Source: Geothrix sp. (GTDB taxonomy: Bacteria > Acidobacteriota > Holophagae > Holophagales > Holophagaceae). Taken from it: a stretch of 64,000 bases of DNA. The position numbers and the translations under genes are program-made. How positions within the stretch are numbered: the stretch's first letter is position 1; each line of letters begins with the position of its first letter. Under the pieces are notes generated by a model. That model saw nothing but the letters and a program-made list of their open reading frames with translations. It was not told the DNA's origin and did no database searches. Shown here in pieces: positions 3,647 through 49,540 of the stretch. Location of the stretch: assembly GCF_020622065.1 (NCBI RefSeq), contig NZ_JAHRYQ010000002.1, positions 126,867 through 190,866 on the forward strand. Reading direction: 5' to 3'.

Positions 3647-3723
<77 letters not shown>

Positions 3724-4350: not shown

Positions 4351-7300
4351 TCAAGGTTTGTCGAAACGGGTCTTAAAGGCGGCATCCCTGGCGAGATCCG
4401 GGAACAGGGGCTGCAGCGGACGAATGTCGGCGTTGTCCTGCGTCGTGGCCGTGACCGCAAAGACCTTCACCCGCGAATCCTTGGGGAGGGTCAGGGTCCT
4501 GGCTCCGGCCGGGATGTCCACGGCGATGGCGAACAGGTAGCAATAGGCATAGACATCATCCTGGCCCTTGGCGTGGTGATGGGAGGCCCACCAGACCGGG
4601 CGGCCGGCCTTCAGGAAAGCCGGCGCGATGCGCTCCAGATCGTTGTTGATCGAGTAGGTTTTCTCATCAACCTCGCCCTTGAACACGCGGTTGTCCCAGG
4701 AACCCACATAGCCGGTCCAGCGTGGGACCTCCACCAACTCGGCCCGGTCCCCGGCCATGAAAGCGGCCTTCACATCCTCGTTGGTCGCGGCCACCAGCAG
4801 GTGCGCTCGCGTGGTTCCCTCGGGAAGAGTCAAGGTCTGGCCTGCACAGGTGAGCGCATTCTTCTGGCCGTCACCGCGGGGGCCGATCTGGAAGCGGATG
4901 CCGCCGGCCTCCACCGCCTCGCCCATCATTTCGGAGGGGTAGCTTGCATAGGGCTCCATGGCCCCGCCCTCCATGCGGTTCGCGTTGGTGCTGAAGACCG
5001 CCGCATCGAACCGGAGCGGCAGGGGCTGTGCCGATGGCGGGGTCAGACGGGCGGGAGCCTCCACCTGCAAGCCGATCGTCCGCAGCTGGTAGGGCGTGAA
5101 AGCCAGCTTCAGGGTCCCCTTTTGCAACGGCAGCTCAGCCAAGGATCGCTCGAGGCCATCCAGTTCCTTCGCGCTGCGGATCGGACCCGCGGCCCTGAGA
5201 TCGATTTCAGTCTGTGAACCCCGGAGCTCCTGAAGGCGGACCACGATGGCCGTTCCATCCTCCGACCGCTTGAGTGCCTGAATGGCCACATCCGGCGTGG
5301 ATGTGCGCAGAAGGCTGAAGCTGCGGCCGAGCGAGCCCGCATGTTTGGGGACGGCGAAGGCGGCCAAGGGCTGATCCTGGCGCAGGGCGAGCCAGGGCGC
5401 GCCCTGCCAGCCCCCGGAATGGCCTGCCAGACCGTAGGTGAAGCTGTGGCGACCCCAGTCCTGCCAGCGTTGTTCGCGGTAATCCTTGCCGACGCCGGGC
5501 GTGTAGAGCAGCGTCAGCCGCAGGGTGTGGTCATCGGGCTTGTCGGTGCCGTATTTGGCTCCCGTCAGCAGGGTCACGCCGTACCCGGCCTGGGCGTCCG
5601 TGAGGTCCATCCAACCGTGGGTGGGCACTTCGTACTTCTTCGGGTCGTTGTTGCCCCGCTCGATGGTGCCCAGGTCCAGGTTGTAGGTGGCCTTCGCATG
5701 GGCGGCGGCCAGGGGGAAGGTGGCCTTCAGGCTGGCCTCCGGCGTCTTCCAGTCCACGAGGTTTGAAATCTCCACGCGGTCCCCGGCGGCCCCGGCGGCG
5801 AGCCGGATGGTCTGGACGAAGCGCGAGCCCTCGCTTTCCCGGACGACCTCCAAGGCGACGCGGACAGGCCCGTCCTCGCTCACACGGATGGCGGCCGGAC
5901 CGGACACATGGGCGCGGGGAGGTTTCTGGCGGTCGGCCCAATCCATGTTCCAGGCCGGCCAGCGCTGCGGTTTCTCAGACTGAAAGGCCAGCCGGGCGGG
6001 TGCGGACAAGAGCTCGCGCTTGAGCTGCTTGTCGAATACGCTCTCGATGTCCCCGGCCCCGTTGAGCTTCACGCGGTAGCGGGCATTCTCCGCCATGCGC
6101 CCTTGCACCTTCAGCTCGCCGGCCGCGGGGGCCTTGCCCGGCCGCAGGCCGTACACCGCGAAGCCCAGGCTGGGCACATGGGCCTGGAACAGCACCCGGC
6201 GGCGGCCATCGGGCCCCGTCGTCATCTGGGTGGGAAGGGCCGCGCCCGCGGCATCCACCGCTGTGACCTGGGATTCGGCTTCGAGTTCACGGGGAAGCAG
6301 GGCCTCCACCAGGTCCTTCCGGGCGATGCCCAGGGCGTTGTAGACCACGATCGGCACGCCCTCCACGCGCGTGTCCAGGCCCCGGGCCACGGCGCCCACG
6401 GCGTCCCCCAGCGTGCCTTCGAAGGCCCTGGCGGCGAGGAGACCATCGTTCCAGGAATACTCATAGGCCTTGGGCAGGCTGGTGCCCGGCAGGATGTCGT
6501 GGAACTGGTTCCTCAGCATGAGGCCCCAGGCTTTCTCAAGGGTCGTGGCCGGATAGGGGCTGGCCTGGAGCAGGTCGGCGGCCACCGAGGCTTTTTCGGC
6601 CGCATCCGCCAGCAGCTCGTCCTGCCGGTTCATCTGCTTCATGAAGGCGGCCGAGGTGAGAGAGCCCGCGGAGTGCTGGGTGAGCAGGAGGTCCCCCTTG
6701 TAGCCCGGCAGCTTGGCCTTCTGACTTTCCGTAATGGCCTCGAACATCAGGTCGGCCCTCCCGGCGATCACCCTCACCGGCCCCTTGGCCGCGAGGCCCT
6801 GCCACAGGGTCCGCAGCGAGTCGTCGAAGGGCGCGCTCCCTTCGTCCCCGTTGCCGTTGTAGAGGTAGTCCACCTTCAGGCCACTGCTGACGCCGTTGGC
6901 ATCCAGCCGCTTCACCCAGGCCTCCCCCGTGAGGGGCGTGGTGAGGTGCGCGTCGTAGCTCCCCGGGTTCAGGGCCGCGATGATCGAGCGGCCGTCGGGG
7001 CCTTCCCAGCGACCCACATTGAAGGGCACGCCGTTGGCCGACCCCCAGGTGAGCTTCTGGGTGGAGAAGCCCTTCAGGCCGCAGTGGGCCAGGATGGACG
7101 GCAGGGAGGCGGGAAAGCCGAAACAGTCGGGCAGCATGTACTCGGAGCTTTCGGTGCCGAATTCCCGCTTGAAGAAGGTGTGGCCCAGCAGCAGCTGGCG
7201 GATCAGGGACTCCGAGGACGGCACATTCACATCCGATTCCTCCCAGGCGGAGCCCGCGGGGAACCACTGGCCTTTGGCCACATATCCCTTCAACCTTGCG

Positions 7301-7572
7301 TACTCGCCCGGAAAATACTCCTGGAACATCTGGTAGCGGCCCGCGCCGCTCCAATTGAAGACATACTCCGGGTGCTGCTCCATCAGCGCGAAGTTGTCGT
7401 ACAGCGTGTTCCGCAGCATCTCCCGGACCACCAGCGGGTAGGACCAGCGCCACTGGGTGTCCAGGTGGGAGTAGTTCATCACATAGAGGGTCCGCTCCTT
7501 CGACAGATCCGGAGGCGCGGCCGCGAGCGCGAGGCCCAGGCCGGTGAGGGCGGCGGTGCGGAGAAGGCGCAT
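4351..7572 (-). CDS. Exported GH38 alpha-mannosidase
   Basis: A 1073-aa glycoside hydrolase of family 38. Metal ligands His and Asp lie in SHLDTQWRW near residue 35. The nucleophile Asp is in LPDCFGFPASLP. The central three-helix domain and C-terminal beta domains follow in the usual order. MRLLRTAALTGLGLALAAAP is a signal peptide, so hydrolysis should take place outside the cytoplasm; the E. coli relative MngB is cytoplasmic. The start at 7572 has AGGAG six nt upstream. It is the last gene of a PTS operon, 28 nt after the HPr-EI-EIIA gene. Likely substrates are alpha-mannosides, possibly mannosylglycerate-like compounds or glycans. The exact substrate cannot be read from sequence. Confidence 0.93.
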   Translation of the reverse strand: MRLLRTAALTGLGLALAAAPPDLSKERTLYVMNYSHLDTQWRWSYPLVVREMLRNTLYDNFALMEQHPEYVFNWSGAGRYQMFQEYFPGEYARLKGYVAKGQWFPAGSAWEESDVNVPSSESLIRQLLLGHTFFKREFGTESSEYMLPDCFGFPASLPSILAHCGLKGFSTQKLTWGSANGVPFNVGRWEGPDGRSIIAALNPGSYDAHLTTPLTGEAWVKRLDANGVSSGLKVDYLYNGNGDEGSAPFDDSLRTLWQGLAAKGPVRVIAGRADLMFEAITESQKAKLPGYKGDLLLTQHSAGSLTSAAFMKQMNRQDELLADAAEKASVAADLLQASPYPATTLEKAWGLMLRNQFHDILPGTSLPKAYEYSWNDGLLAARAFEGTLGDAVGAVARGLDTRVEGVPIVVYNALGIARKDLVEALLPRELEAESQVTAVDAAGAALPTQMTTGPDGRRRVLFQAHVPSLGFAVYGLRPGKAPAAGELKVQGRMAENARYRVKLNGAGDIESVFDKQLKRELLSAPARLAFQSEKPQRWPAWNMDWADRQKPPRAHVSGPAAIRVSEDGPVRVALEVVRESEGSRFVQTIRLAAGAAGDRVEISNLVDWKTPEASLKATFPLAAAHAKATYNLDLGTIERGNNDPKKYEVPTHGWMDLTDAQAGYGVTLLTGAKYGTDKPDDHTLRLTLLYTPGVGKDYREQRWQDWGRHSFTYGLAGHSGGWQGAPWLALRQDQPLAAFAVPKHAGSLGRSFSLLRTSTPDVAIQALKRSEDGTAIVVRLQELRGSQTEIDLRAAGPIRSAKELDGLERSLAELPLQKGTLKLAFTPYQLRTIGLQVEAPARLTPPSAQPLPLRFDAAVFSTNANRMEGGAMEPYASYPSEMMGEAVEAGGIRFQIGPRGDGQKNALTCAGQTLTLPEGTTRAHLLVAATNEDVKAAFMAGDRAELVEVPRWTGYVGSWDNRVFKGEVDEKTYSINNDLERIAPAFLKAGRPVWWASHHHAKGQDDVYAYCYLFAIAVDIPAGARTLTLPKDSRVKVFAVTATTQDNADIRPLQPLFPDLARDAAFKTRFDKP

Positions 7573-7600
7573 GGGGGCTCCTGGAATGGCGTGGGTGGTC

Positions 7601-10090
7601 TTAGGCCGAGAGGTCCGGACGGAGGAGGTCGAGCAGGGCTTCGGTGTCGGGGGCTTCGAGGAGGCCCTGGCGGAAGCCCGCATCCATGAGGCGACGGGCC
7701 AGGCGGGCGAAGATGCGGAGGTGCTCGTCCTCCCCGTCGGGCCGCGAGATGAGGAGGAAGACGAGTCGCGCCTCGGCATCGTCACTCCAGGCGACCGGGG
7801 CCGCCAGCCTCAGGATGGCGATGGCGTTGGCGGCCACGGCCGGGCTCTTGCAGTGGGGTACCGCGAAGCCGAAGCCGAGGCCGGTGGCGTAGGCGGCCTC
7901 CCGGGCCCAGATGGCCTCCTCGAGATCGAGGGGATCCCGGGTACGCCCGGCGCTGGCGAGCCGCTCCACGAGGAGCTTGATCGCCTCCTCCTTCGTGCCG
8001 CAGGCGGCCTCGAGCACCACCAGGTCCGGATCCAGAAGGGGTGGAGCCACACCGGGCCTCAGGGCCTCGTCCAGGAGTCCTTCGACCTCTGTGGCTGTGG
8101 CCGCCCGGAGCGCCCTCCGGGTCAGGTCGAGGCAGGCTTCCAGATCCAGAGGGGCGAGGGCGTGCCGGATGGCGGCCACCGCGGAGGGCGCCACGCTGAG
8201 GTCGTCGAAGCCGAGGCCCAGCAGGAGGGGCAGGAGCTTCGGCCGGCTGGCCATCTCGCCGCAGATGCTCACGGGTTTTCCGGCAGCCCGCGCGCCCTGG
8301 GCGATGTGGGCCAGAAGGCGCAGGGTGGCCGGGTGCCACTCGTGGCAGGCCTTCGCCACGCCGGCATCCCCGCGATCCGCCGCGAACAGGTACTGCACCA
8401 GATCATTGGTTCCCACGGAGAGGAAATCTGCTTCCCGGCCCAGCGCCTCGAGGTTCAAGGCGGCCGCGGGGACCTCCACCATGATGCCGAGGGGAACTTC
8501 CGGAAGGTTCACGCCCTCCGCGACAAGCGAAGCCCGCACCTCCTCCATCAGGGCCCGGACCCAGCGCAGTTCCTCCACCTCGGCCACCATGGGGATCATG
8601 AGCCGAAGGGGGCCATGGGCCGCCGCCCGCAGGGCCGCCCTGAGCTGAGTGCGCACCAGATCCACCTGCTCCGCATACCAACGGACACCCCGGCGTCCCA
8701 GGAAGGGATTCATTTCCGGAAGCAGCGGCAGGTAGGCCAGGGGCTTGTCCCCCCCCACATCGAGCAGCCTCAGGGTGACGGGCCGCCCTGCAGCTTCGCG
8801 GAGGACCCGACCATAGGCCTGGACCTGCTCATCCTCCCCGGGGGGCGCCGGCCGGTGGAGGAACAGCATCTCCGTGCGGAACAACCCGATGCCGTCGGCC
8901 CCTGCCCCCAGGGCGCGGCTGGTCTCCTCGGCGGTGGAGATGTTCCCGAGCACGCGCACCTCATGCCCGTCCTGTGTCCTTGCTCCGACCCAGGCGGCCG
9001 GGCGGCCCCTCTGCTGGCCCATCCGCTGGCGCTGGCCCTCTGCCTCGACACGGTAGTAGGCCTCGACTTCCGGCGTAGGCTCCGCGATGACGAGGCCCCG
9101 CAGGCCGTCCACCAGCAGGCGGCGACCTTCCAAGGCCTCCGGCACCAGCGCGGTCACGCAGGGGATCCCGAAGGAACGGGCGAGGATGGCCGTATGGGAG
9201 GTCCCGCCGCCTTCGGCCAGCACGAGGCCCCGCAGGAGCTCGAGGTCCAGGGCAAGGAGCCTTGAGGGCGCCAGCCGGTCGGCCACCAGCACGGAGGGAG
9301 CCGTGAGACGCAGGCGGGAGGCCTCAGGATCCTCGCCGCAGAGCTCGCGGATCAACCGGTCAGCCACATCCTGGAGATCCAGGGCCCGTTCCCGGATGGC
9401 GGCATGCTCCGAGCGGGCCAGCGGGCCTTCCGCCGACCGCGTGGCAGCCTCCACCGCGCCCGCGGCCGTAAGGCCCTCCAGCAGTGCGGCCTCGATGCCG
9501 TCGCGCCAGGTCGGATCGCCCAGGAGGGCCAGATGCACCTCCAGCACGCTGCGCTGAGCGGGATGCGCGGCGTGCCGAATCTCCTCCTTCAGCCGGTCTC
9601 CCACCGTCTCGAGAGCCAACTGGAGAGCCTTCCGTTCGACCTCGACCGGCGCTTCGCCCAAGAGCCCCTGGGCCGGTCGGGGCGCGGCGACGGTCAGACG
9701 CACGAGCTGCCCGGTGCCCACGCCTTCGGAGACGCCCACCCCCGCCCACCAGCGGCCGCCGGCTCGCTCCACCAGGCGCGGGACGACGGAGGAGGTCCGC
9801 GCCCCAGGCACCGCGCTGCGGTCGCAACTCAGAAAGGGGCCCTGGAGGAAGGCCACCAGGTCGCGGTGGGCCTCGGCCTCGTCGCCGGTTTCCACCCGGA
9901 TCCGGCAAGGGTCGCCCTTGCGGGTGTCCGTGGCCAGCAGTCCCAGGACGCTGTCCAGGGACGCGGTCCGGCCCGTGCGCTCATTCAGGAACTCGAGGCG
10001 GGCGGAGTGGGCTGCGCTCCGCTCACGGAGGGCGGCGGCGGGCCAAGCGTGGAGGCCGCCTGCCAGGGGGAAGTCGAAGGCGTAGTCCAT
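7601..10090 (-). CDS. Fused PTS phosphocarrier: HPr - Enzyme I - EIIA(Fru-type)
   Basis: One 829-aa cytoplasmic protein carries three phosphotransfer modules. Residues 1-90 are HPr-like, with His14 in GGLHAWPAA. Residues 110-670 are Enzyme I, with active His299 in GGGTSHTAI, plus DVGGDKP, NPFLGRRGVR, GTNDLVQY and Cys610 in SICGEM. Residues 685-829 are a fructose-type EIIA with His746 in AVPHCKS. PEP phosphate would flow EI to HPr to IIA within one chain, then to the EIIB encoded next door. The conserved HPr Arg that follows the active His by two (Arg17 in the E. coli protein) is Trp16 here. The start at 10090 is set by the HPr N-terminus and lies 7 nt from the EIIB stop. It resembles FruB/FPr-type fusions, with the EIIA at the C-terminus. 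Confidence 0.95.
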   Translation of the reverse strand: MDYAFDFPLAGGLHAWPAAALRERSAAHSARLEFLNERTGRTASLDSVLGLLATDTRKGDPCRIRVETGDEAEAHRDLVAFLQGPFLSCDRSAVPGARTSSVVPRLVERAGGRWWAGVGVSEGVGTGQLVRLTVAAPRPAQGLLGEAPVEVERKALQLALETVGDRLKEEIRHAAHPAQRSVLEVHLALLGDPTWRDGIEAALLEGLTAAGAVEAATRSAEGPLARSEHAAIRERALDLQDVADRLIRELCGEDPEASRLRLTAPSVLVADRLAPSRLLALDLELLRGLVLAEGGGTSHTAILARSFGIPCVTALVPEALEGRRLLVDGLRGLVIAEPTPEVEAYYRVEAEGQRQRMGQQRGRPAAWVGARTQDGHEVRVLGNISTAEETSRALGAGADGIGLFRTEMLFLHRPAPPGEDEQVQAYGRVLREAAGRPVTLRLLDVGGDKPLAYLPLLPEMNPFLGRRGVRWYAEQVDLVRTQLRAALRAAAHGPLRLMIPMVAEVEELRWVRALMEEVRASLVAEGVNLPEVPLGIMVEVPAAALNLEALGREADFLSVGTNDLVQYLFAADRGDAGVAKACHEWHPATLRLLAHIAQGARAAGKPVSICGEMASRPKLLPLLLGLGFDDLSVAPSAVAAIRHALAPLDLEACLDLTRRALRAATATEVEGLLDEALRPGVAPPLLDPDLVVLEAACGTKEEAIKLLVERLASAGRTRDPLDLEEAIWAREAAYATGLGFGFAVPHCKSPAVAANAIAILRLAAPVAWSDDAEARLVFLLISRPDGEDEHLRIFARLARRLMDAGFRQGLLEAPDTEALLDLLRPDLSA

Positions 10091-10097
10091 CTTGGCC

Positions 10098-10394
10098 CTA
10101 GAGACGCGCGAAGATCTCGGCCGGGTTCTTGATGGCCAGCTGCACGGGAACCTCGAGGATCCGGGCGATGCCGGCGAAGCGCTCCCGGCCCTGCACGGGC
10201 AGATCCGAGGCCAGGATGACAGCATCGGCACCCTCCACATCCGCCTCGGTCAGCCGGTTCTCAATGCCCATGGCACCCTGGGTTTCCACCTTGATGTTGT
10301 GGCCCAACTGCTTGCCTGTGCGTTCCAGCTGCTCGGCGGCCATATAGGTGTGGGCGATGCCGGTGGGACAAGCCGTGATGGCGAGAATCTTCAT
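10098..10394 (-). CDS. PTS fructose-family EIIB component
   Basis: A 98-aa single-domain EIIB. The phosphorylated Cys is in TACPTGIAHTYMAA, the signature of the fructose/mannitol-type IIB. It receives phosphate from the IIA domain of the downstream fusion protein and passes it to sugar bound to EIIC. The ATG overlaps the EIIC stop by 4 nt (ATGA), and the stop lies 7 nt before the next gene, so the three PTS genes should be translationally coupled. Confidence 0.95.
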   Translation of the reverse strand: MKILAITACPTGIAHTYMAAEQLERTGKQLGHNIKVETQGAMGIENRLTEADVEGADAVILASDLPVQGRERFAGIARILEVPVQLAIKNPAEIFARL

Positions 10395-11434
10395 GGGGCC
10401 TCCGCGGAAGGCTGGGCGGAGCGGGCGGGGGCCCGCAGGAGGTTGATGGCCACGGCAACGGCCAAGGTGCCGATGGCGATCGCGGCGAGGTACCAGAGTC
10501 GGTGGTCCACCACGGGCAGGACGATCAATCCTCCGTGGGGCGCGTGATCGCCCACGCTGCCCAGCATGGCGATGACGGCGCCCAGGGCGGAACCGCCCAT
10601 GATGGTGGGGATCACGCGGACGGGGTCGGCGGCGGCGAAGGGAATGGCCCCTTCCGTGATGCCGATGGCGCCCATGGCCAGGGCCGCGAGACCCGATTCA
10701 CGCTCGCTGTCCGTCCAGCGCCCAGGCGCCAGGAGCGTCGCCAGGCCCAGGCCCAGGGGGGGGATGCAGATGGCGGCGGCACAGGCGCCCATGACGCCCA
10801 CATGGCCCTCCCGGATCATGGCCACCCCGAAAAAGAAGGCCGCCTTGTTCACGGGTCCACCCATGTCGAAGGCGATCATGGCGCCCAGCACCAGGCCGAG
10901 GAGCACCTGGTTGCCGCTGCCCAGGTTCTGGAGCGCCTGGGCCAGCCAGGCCATGAGTCCCTTGATGGGCGCCCCCAGCAGGCCATACATGACCAGGCCC
11001 ACCACCAGAGAGGACAGCACGGGGATCACCAGGATGGGCATGATGGGCCGCAGCAGCCGATGTACCGGCAGCCGCCTCAACAGCAGCACCACGCCGCCCG
11101 CCAGGAGTCCCGCCGCGAGCCCTCCCAGGAATCCGGCCCCCACCGCATTGGAGATGAAGCCACCCACGAAGCCGGGTACCAGGCCCGGACGGTCGGCCAT
11201 GCCAAAGGCGATGTAGCCCGCCAGCACGGGGACCACCAGGGAGAACGCGGCCAGGCCGATGTCCATGATCACCTTCAGGACCGGGGCCTGGCTGAAGTCC
11301 GGGCCGGTGCCGGGTCGCATGGGCGCGAAGGCGATGGCCACGGCGATGAGGATGCCGCCGCAGGCCACGAAGGGGATGACATGGGAGACGCCGCAGAGCA
11401 GGTAGGTCTTCAGGCGCTGAAGGCTCGCATGCAT
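10391..11434 (-). CDS. PTS fructose-family EIIC permease
   Basis: A 347-aa integral membrane sugar permease. About nine hydrophobic segments are visible. The family loop GITEGAIPFAAADP, which lines the sugar site, is intact, as is FDMGGPVNKAAF. The start at 11434 has AGGAG with 5-nt spacing; an upstream in-frame ATG at 11515 lacks one and would add a polar tail. It is the first gene of the operon EIIC-EIIB-HPr/EI/IIA-mannosidase. Its family transports fructose, mannosylglycerate and related sugars. The neighbouring mannosidase suggests a mannose-derived substrate, but no 1-phosphofructokinase or other sugar-phosphate enzyme lies in the operon. Confidence 0.93.
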   Translation of the reverse strand: MHASLQRLKTYLLCGVSHVIPFVACGGILIAVAIAFAPMRPGTGPDFSQAPVLKVIMDIGLAAFSLVVPVLAGYIAFGMADRPGLVPGFVGGFISNAVGAGFLGGLAAGLLAGGVVLLLRRLPVHRLLRPIMPILVIPVLSSLVVGLVMYGLLGAPIKGLMAWLAQALQNLGSGNQVLLGLVLGAMIAFDMGGPVNKAAFFFGVAMIREGHVGVMGACAAAICIPPLGLGLATLLAPGRWTDSERESGLAALAMGAIGITEGAIPFAAADPVRVIPTIMGGSALGAVIAMLGSVGDHAPHGGLIVLPVVDHRLWYLAAIAIGTLAVAVAINLLRAPARSAQPSAEAP

Positions 11435-11552
11435 GTCGGCTCCTGAGGACTCGCTGACAGCGTAGTCGCCGGGATGGCTTCTCAAAAAGGGGGAGTTCTG
11501 TCCGTTCATTTGCATTTTTTGGCACCATCATGAGTGCGTCCGGAGACGCCCC
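11435..11552. promoter_or_regulatory. Divergent control region between the PTS operon and its AraC regulator
   Basis: This is the only intergenic space for both transcription units. It contains an A/T-rich stretch (11500-11525) unusual for this genome, where direct or inverted half-sites for the AraC protein would be expected. I cannot assign a clear -35/-10 pair to either direction. Confidence 0.4.
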
Positions 11553-12419
11553 GTGCCCGAATCCCATGCCACCGTCTGGAGAATCCCCTCGACCCACCTG
11601 GACGAGGCCTGGGGGCTCTATGTGAGCGCCGTCGCCTCGGGAGAGGATCAGCCGGGACTGCCCTCGGGGCGTTGGCGCCTGAGATGGGTCGTGCGGGGCG
11701 CCGCCATCCTGGTGGCGCCGGGTCGCCGGCGCCAGCGGGTCGAAGCCGGGGATGTCGTCCTTTCCTCGGCCTCCAGCGGGGGAAACCTGGTGCCCGATCC
11801 CGACCAGACTTGCCGCATCCACCAGGTGGATTTTGGTGGCGCCTGGATGGAGCGTTGGGAGGAGGCGGGCTTCTTCGGCGTACTTCCCCGGGTGATCCGG
11901 GCGGGCTTCGATGAAAGCCTCTTGGGCCTTCTGGTGAAGCTGATGGAATTGGCCAAGGCTCCTGGGCCGGATTCAGGGCGTCTGATGGCTGGGGTGCTCG
12001 GGAACCTGCTCGCCCGCCTGGAATGCGCCAACCGCACCGGCAGTGAAGTCAGCCGAAAGCAGGGCCTCATCCAGGACGCCTATCGGCTTCTTGGGGATCC
12101 GGAGCGGAGCCGGATGGGACTGGAGACCTTCGCCGGAGACCTGGGCGTCAGCTACTCGTGGTTCCGCAGAAGTTTTCGCAACCACACGGGCCTGACCCCC
12201 CAGCGCTATCGCCTTCTGCAGCAACTCGACAGGGCCTGCCAGTTGCTCAGCGATACGAGCCTCCCCGTGGGCACCATCTCCGAGCACCTCGGCTTCAGTT
12301 CCCAGGCCTATTTCGCCCGCAGGTTCCGCAAGGAGACGGGGTTCTCCCCCACGGTCTGGAGGCGGCAGCAATTGGGCGAGGGAGCGCGGGCCGAGGCCAC
12401 GATCCGGGATGCGCCTTGA
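11553..12419 (+). CDS. AraC-family transcriptional regulator of the PTS operon
   Basis: A 288-aa regulator. The N-terminal half is a cupin-like sensor (GRRRQRVEAGDVVLSS). Residues about 165-275 form two helix-turn-helix units, with the second reading TISEHLGFSSQAYFARRFRK followed by TGFSPTVWR, the AraC signature. It starts at GTG with GGAG seven nt upstream. It is transcribed away from the EIIC gene across 118 nt. That layout and the absence of another local target make the PTS-mannosidase operon its likely regulon. E. coli uses a GntR protein (MngR) for a comparable operon, so the control type differs. Confidence 0.92.
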   Translation: MPESHATVWRIPSTHLDEAWGLYVSAVASGEDQPGLPSGRWRLRWVVRGAAILVAPGRRRQRVEAGDVVLSSASSGGNLVPDPDQTCRIHQVDFGGAWMERWEEAGFFGVLPRVIRAGFDESLLGLLVKLMELAKAPGPDSGRLMAGVLGNLLARLECANRTGSEVSRKQGLIQDAYRLLGDPERSRMGLETFAGDLGVSYSWFRRSFRNHTGLTPQRYRLLQQLDRACQLLSDTSLPVGTISEHLGFSSQAYFARRFRKETGFSPTVWRRQQLGEGARAEATIRDAP

Positions 12420-48592: not shown

Positions 48593-48628
48593 TCCAGGCA
48601 CCTGAACTGCGCACATGGAGTGTTTCTG

Positions 48629-49540
48629 ATGAGCTTGCTGGTCGTCGGCAGTGTGGCTTTTGATGATCTGGAGACGCCCTTCGGGCGCCGCGAGCATGCC
48701 CTCGGGGGCTCGGCGACCTACTTCTCCCTGAGCGCCAGCCGCTTCCACCCCGTGCGCATGGTCGCCGTGGTGGGCGAAGACTTCGGCCCGGAGCAGATGC
48801 GGGTCTTCAGCGGCCGGCCCATCGACCTGGCTGGGCTTTCGAAGGTCAAGGGCCTCAGCTTCCACTGGAAGGGCGCCTACGGCTATGACCTGAACGAGGC
48901 CAAGACCCTCGCCACGGATCTCAATGTCTTCGCGGATTTCCGCCCCGATCTGCCTGAGGCCTACCGGGAATCCCAATACCTGTTCCTGGGGAACATCGAC
49001 CCGGCCCTGCAGCTGGATGTGGTGCGCCAGATGGCGAAGCGCCCCCGCTGGATCGCCCTGGACACCATGAACTACTGGATCCGGGGCGCCCGCCCGGCCC
49101 TGGAGGCGGTCCTGAAGGAAGTGGACATCCTTCTGGTCAACGATGCCGAGGTGCGGGAACTGACCCGGGAGCACAGCCTCCTCAAGGCCTACAGGAAGAT
49201 CCAGGCCCTGGGTCCCCGCATCCTCGTGGTCAAGCGCGGCGAGTACGGCATGGCCCTGTTCACCCCCGAGGGCCACTTCGCCGCCCCCGCCTACCCCCTG
49301 GAGAATGTCTTCGATCCCACCGGGGCCGGGGACACCTTTGCCGGCGGTTTCCTGGGCTATCTGGCCTGGATCGAGCGGACGGATGTGACGGCCCTGAAAC
49401 ATGCCTCCCTGGTGGGATCGGTCATGGCCAGCTTCACCGTGGAGCAGTTCTCCACTGAGCGCCTGGAGCAGATCACACAGGACGAAGTCCGCAACCGCTT
49501 GGCATTATTTTCAGATATGATCCGCGTCGAAGACCTATAA
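48629..49540 (+). CDS. PfkB-family sugar/nucleoside kinase
   Basis: A 303-aa ribokinase-fold kinase. The C-terminal signature DPTGAGDTFAGGFLGYL holds the catalytic Asp and anion hole. N-terminal GGSATYFSLSASRF matches the substrate-binding lid region. Substrate specificity is not evident (sugar or nucleoside). ATG 48629 has GGAG eight nt upstream; the GTG at 48620 is too close to it. TATAAT lies over its stop codon (49536-49541) and may be the -10 of the next gene. Confidence 0.88.
   Translation: MSLLVVGSVAFDDLETPFGRREHALGGSATYFSLSASRFHPVRMVAVVGEDFGPEQMRVFSGRPIDLAGLSKVKGLSFHWKGAYGYDLNEAKTLATDLNVFADFRPDLPEAYRESQYLFLGNIDPALQLDVVRQMAKRPRWIALDTMNYWIRGARPALEAVLKEVDILLVNDAEVRELTREHSLLKAYRKIQALGPRILVVKRGEYGMALFTPEGHFAAPAYPLENVFDPTGAGDTFAGGFLGYLAWIERTDVTALKHASLVGSVMASFTVEQFSTERLEQITQDEVRNRLALFSDMIRVEDL

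Follow-up and report, generated by a model that had tools for sequence, protein, structure and literature searches.

The window, a 64,000-nucleotide stretch of a Geothrix contig, contains a minus-strand operon in which the genes for EIIC, EIIB, a fused HPr-EI-EIIA protein and a GH38 alpha-mannosidase follow one another in this order from 11434 to 4351, with an AraC-family gene facing them (Table 1). The EIIC and EIIB genes overlap by ATGA, and spacers of 7 and 28 bp separate EIIB from the fusion gene and the fusion gene from the GH38 gene, respectively. The operon and the divergent regulator had been placed here by the original prediction, and both were confirmed by their coordinates and by Pfam and NCBIfam searches; the AraC protein was also conserved in relatives. 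A scan for sigma-70 promoters and terminators gave no match. A tRNA-Met gene was located near the left end of the operon, at window 3647-3723. In the related genome G032 (locus L046), the right-hand neighbours were common with the window and the left-hand genes differed; thus, the left junction of the operon has been rearranged.

Table 1. Genes and candidate operator of the PTS-GH38 locus (window positions)
Feature	Position	Strand	Basis
EIIC, fructose-superfamily PTS permease, FrwC-like	10391-11434	minus	TIGR01427 and E. coli identities
EIIB, fructose type	10098-10394	minus	TIGR00829 and PF02302
Multiphosphoryl transfer protein HPr-EI-EIIA, 829 aa	7601-10090	minus	Pfam domains; collinear with PtsA and FryA
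GH38 alpha-mannosidase, 1073 aa, predicted exported	4351-7572	minus	Four GH38 Pfam domains; fold match
AraC-family regulator, divergent	11553-12419	plus	HTH_18, 1.7e-20
Candidate operator, direct repeat TGCCAAAAAATGCAAAT, 10-bp period	11508-11524	minus	Conserved in the AraC-EIIC gap

The PTS proteins were characterized by their domains, active sites and nearest E. coli relatives. PF00381, PF05524, PF00391, PF02896 and PF00359 were all found in the single 829-residue chain of the fused protein, which was collinear over a full-length alignment with PtsA (37% identity) and FryA (36%). EIIC scored 305.9 bits with TIGR01427 (cut-off, 157.6), and EIIB scored 108 bits with TIGR00829 (cut-off, 76.9) and also matched PF02302. 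EIIC was 48% identical to FrwC, 46% to FruA, 35% to MngA and 26% to FryC. The locus thus combines HPr, EI and a fructose-type EIIA in order in one protein with separate EIIB and EIIC proteins above their subfamily cut-offs, as is characteristic of the Frw/Fry-like PTS class. The equivalog models PRK10478 (360 bits vs. 426) and PRK10474 (111 vs. 135), whose lengths of 359 and 106 suggest that they represent FrwC and FrwB, fell below their cut-offs; accordingly, the PTS was classed as Frw-like rather than as Frw itself. All phosphorylation residues were present, namely, the HPr His, the EI His and Cys, the EIIA His and the EIIB Cys, the last within the conserved motif ACPTGIAHT. In the HPr domain, residues 12-19 read GLHAWPAA, with Trp in place of the usually conserved Arg17. 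This Trp occurred in the window genome and in G032, G044, G012 and G042, and all other homologues compared carried Arg.

The original prediction had also proposed that the phosphorelay is private to this operon. The window genome (3.35 Mb, two contigs, 100% complete) was searched accordingly, and HPr and EIIA_2 gave no match besides the fused gene and the fructose-type EIIC none besides the operon EIIC. The PEP-utiliser C domain was found in the fused gene and in a 1010-residue PPDK-like open frame, and, apart from the latter, no second ptsI or ptsH was detected in this complete genome. Judged from gene content, the relay is private within the limits of these searches and the operon is self-sufficient. 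Any other EII family in the genome would depend on this operon, without other EI or HPr. Moreover, among 47 genomes of the genus, the fused protein was full-length in eight and present as a contig-end fragment in a ninth. HPr was found in 9 of the 47, in eight of them within the fused protein and in one (G034, a genome with 6% contamination) as a stand-alone protein with its own EI. A contig end of G034 carried a GH38 gene adjoining the last residues of a fused protein. From this distribution of HPr, the genus appears to be without a sugar PTS relay apart from this operon.

The GH38 protein belongs to its class by matches to all four GH38 Pfam domains. H36, D38, D149 and H300, which were invariant among homologues, are presumably the zinc and nucleophile positions known from established GH38 chemistry. 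Its N-terminus, MRLLRTAALTGLGLALAAAPPD, was signal peptide-like, as were the N-termini of its homologues, including all GH38s of these operons, the clearer cases being L078, L069 and L081; MngB of E. coli showed no such segment. The enzyme is therefore apparently exported. The AlphaFold2 model (pLDDT 86, pTM 0.91) matched yeast Ams1 best (7dd9_A; VIA Z 31.9, rmsd 2.9, 756 aligned), followed by the GH38s of E. faecalis and S. pyogenes, B. longum Man38A-C and Golgi mannosidase II; the mannose-active relatives by fold include Bl_Man38A with bound mannose. The GH38 core was alike in Ams1, Bl_Man38A-C and SpGH38 (Z 26-32 over about 720-775 residues). However, Ams1 and Bl_Man38 aligned only from about residue 260, their N-terminal part being absent from the window GH38, which in turn has an extra beta-rich C-terminal domain (residues about 835-1073, window 4351-5070) common to the GH38s of Bacteroidales and Aminicenantes. 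Residues 835-1048 matched AziU2/U3 chains (Z 21-22, rmsd 4-5.5), a modelled likeness that should be read as a fold hint only. The nearest sequence relatives outside the family, with 40-52% full-length identity, came from Aminicenantes, Pyrinomonadaceae, other Acidobacteria and Bacteroidales, and none of them had a PTS nearby except that of L078.

An analogy with E. coli mngAB had been drawn by the original prediction. As in mngRAB, a fructose-superfamily PTS lies beside a GH38 gene, but the E. coli system has a fused EIIABC and a GntR regulator and no private EI or HPr. In the case of the window GH38, the score for the MngB equivalog was 61.5 bits against a cut-off of 1138, so that this assignment was rejected, and the identity to MngB was only 21%. 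Likewise, the fused EIIABC model of MngA (cut-off, 763 bits) was matched by three separate proteins with 184 (EIIC), 103 (EIIB) and 72 bits (EIIA), and an AraC protein was present instead of a GntR regulator. The broad pairing would still allow a pathway in which the PTS takes up and phosphorylates mannosylglycerate, or a different mannoside, in intact form, with cytoplasmic cleavage by GH38 to follow. This is improbable given the signal peptide-like start of the GH38 and its homologues, the closeness of its fold to Ams1, its distance from MngB, and an EIIC nearer FrwC (48%) than MngA (35%). Because the EII and fused proteins resemble those of Frw and Fry, the mngAB analogy fails in detail.

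The Frw PTS (ptsA, frwC, frwB, yijO) and Fry PTS (fryA, fryB, fryC, ypdC) of E. coli have the fusion domain order of the window, separate EIIB and EIIC proteins and an AraC-type gene nearby; an HPr-EI-EIIA fusion with a nearby AraC gene thus already exists in E. coli (PtsA, FryA). Unlike the window operon, they include no GH38 gene, their neighbours being pflDC, gldA and fsaB or aminopeptidases, and their products carry 'putative' annotations. In E. coli, EI and HPr are encoded by further genes as well, and EI/HPr fusion proteins with a IIA domain have long been known (PMC2405797).

The arrangement was conserved beyond the window genome. EIIC, EIIB, fusion and GH38 genes occurred in one order in nine further genomes of two genera, comprising four of this genus (G032, G044, G012 and G018) and three of another (G066, G059 and G050) with a facing AraC gene, and G042 and G071, where the same order was cut by contig ends. 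In G071, the GH38 gene (L056:14808-17998) was split over frames, through a frameshift or an assembly error, and the adjoining fused PTS gene was contig-cut. An AraC homologue was in place at all nine other family loci that reach that far, namely, the seven with complete cassettes and those of G037 and G019. The latter two had the PTS and AraC genes without GH38, in whose place TonB-receptor-like and outer-membrane beta-barrel genes were found (L051:1325-6505 and L052:10267-15568). A distant, unclassified bacterium (L078; MAG bin.10) showed AraC, EIIC, EIIB, fusion and GH38 genes in the same arrangement, with another AraC-type gene. In family f27 (G124, G410, G349 and G169), a different, N-terminally extended GH38 gene lay directly 5' of EIIC, and in G391 of family f63 a GH38 gene of the window type lay divergently beside EIIC, in a region with 81% DNA identity to an Aminicenantes contig. 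No GH38 gene was found near the PTS genes of G225, G356 and the f42 genomes, and most f63 and f42 genomes were without one there. Two GH38 types were linked to the PTS, and the linkage recurred across three families of the phylum as well as in one distant bacterium.

Within the genus, GH38 was present in seven of the nine genomes with the fused protein (one of them a contig-end fragment) and in none of the 38 without it. The corresponding Fisher value of 5.7e-7, uncorrected for kinship, is too small because the genomes are related. Kinship alone can hardly account for two GH38 types occurring in different families. A single, clean line of vertical descent was not seen in the fused-protein tree, in which G018 of this genus clustered with G050 from the other genus (100/100); either transfer between genera or an old paralogy is suggested by this grouping. 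G037, G019 and most f63 and f42 genomes have the cassette without GH38, and the sugar carried by the PTS may therefore be independent of GH38. A PTS that carries an unrelated sugar, with GH38 merely a neighbour in the regulon, would account for these loci. It is nevertheless unlikely, as the PTS accompanied every GH38 found in the genus, and GH38s of two types, in different families, are paired with this PTS.

The fate of the imported sugar was then considered. As the original prediction had stated, no sugar-phosphate kinase or isomerase gene is included in the operon, but a candidate for the isomerase was located elsewhere. The window genome gave no match to type I phosphomannose isomerase (two models) or to the bifunctional PGI/PMI (bact-PGI_C domain). 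A cupin protein of 119 residues (PF01050, 68.7 bits), a putative phosphomannose isomerase, adjoins manC and the phosphofructokinase gene pfkA, the three genes lying in a row at about G000:C2:756-759 kb, unlinked to the operon. Judging by its domain, this protein could convert mannose-6-phosphate to fructose-6-phosphate, and it may equally serve GDP-mannose synthesis only.

Fructose was weighed as the transported sugar as well. The exported GH38 might act on an alpha-mannoside in which mannose is joined to the sugar that the PTS imports; from mannosylfructose, for instance, it would release fructose for import as fructose-1-phosphate. EIIC is nearly as close to FruA (46%) as to FrwC (48%), PtsA has been linked to anaerobic fructose use by literature cited in PMC6643234, and mannose and fructose are both transported by ManP of V. 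cholerae (PMC9392796). However, no FruK-like gene was found in the window genome, and of the two PfkB matches one was HldE-like and the other scored far under the cut-off for 1-phosphofructokinase; this route is quite unlikely. A PfkB-family protein encoded at window 48620-49540 scored under every NCBIfam equivalog cut-off.

The AraC-EIIC gap contains the direct repeat listed in Table 1. It was the sole match in the window when at most one mismatch was allowed (0.02 expected), and among 180 loci exact matches occurred at this operon only. Related sequences were found in G018 and in G037/G019, and L078 had no exact copy. As the pattern was derived from the same loci in which it was searched, these matches support conservation of the repeat rather than binding, and the repeat is a candidate operator. 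By analogy, the nearest studied precedent for the regulation is that of V. cholerae, where the AraC-type ManR bound to mannose-6-phosphate activates ManP (PMC9392796). There too, in manR-manPA, an AraC-type regulator adjoins a fructose-family EII that imports mannose, but manA is included in the operon, no private EI or HPr is present there and no GH38 was reported (PMC9392796). A ManP-like system would include a mannose-6-phosphate isomerase within the operon; here the nearest candidate was the cupin protein at G000:C2:756 kb.

Taken together, we somewhat favor a Frw-like, self-contained PTS that acts in concert with an exported GH38 alpha-mannosidase, by which mannose would be imported as mannose-6-phosphate. 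GH38 would leave the cytoplasm and remove alpha-linked mannose residues from the ends of glycans, mannan fragments or small mannosides. The released mannose would pass the inner membrane via EIIC and be phosphorylated by EIIB, with the phosphate passing from PEP along the EI, HPr and EIIA domains of the fusion and then to EIIB, and no outside PTS part would be needed. The cupin isomerase beside manC could convert mannose-6-phosphate to fructose-6-phosphate, which would enter glycolysis via PfkA, and the AraC protein, probably sensing the incoming sugar phosphate, would activate the operon from the repeat at 11508-11524. This model is supported by the linkage of two GH38 types to the PTS in three families and a distant bacterium, by the finding that, in a complete genome, no EI, HPr, EIIA_2 or fructose EIIC was detected outside this operon, and by signal peptide-like N-termini on the operon GH38s and none on MngB. 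It is further supported by mannose-active fold relatives, by the row of cupin isomerase, manC and pfkA genes, and by ManP of V. cholerae, a fructose-family EII importing mannose (PMC9392796). Against it stand the HPr Trp17 in place of Arg, the distance of the isomerase gene from the operon, and the prediction of export from the N-terminal sequence alone.

No published account of this operon was found in the open-licence literature. With somewhat less confidence than an even chance, the operon may be regarded as one transferable cassette, in which a complete PEP-to-sugar PTS, in a genus otherwise without EI and HPr, is dedicated to alpha-mannosides cut by its own exported GH38. If so, mannose released from mannosides would be a natural class of substrate for the Frw-like PTS, and the GH38 partner conserved in another phylum would provide a testable substrate guess for Frw and Fry, which are annotated as 'putative'. 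The operon would also offer a clear example from nature of a PTS that functions on its own, in the absence of a general PTS, and with this single portable cassette a bacterium otherwise lacking a PTS may be able to feed on mannose-containing sugars.
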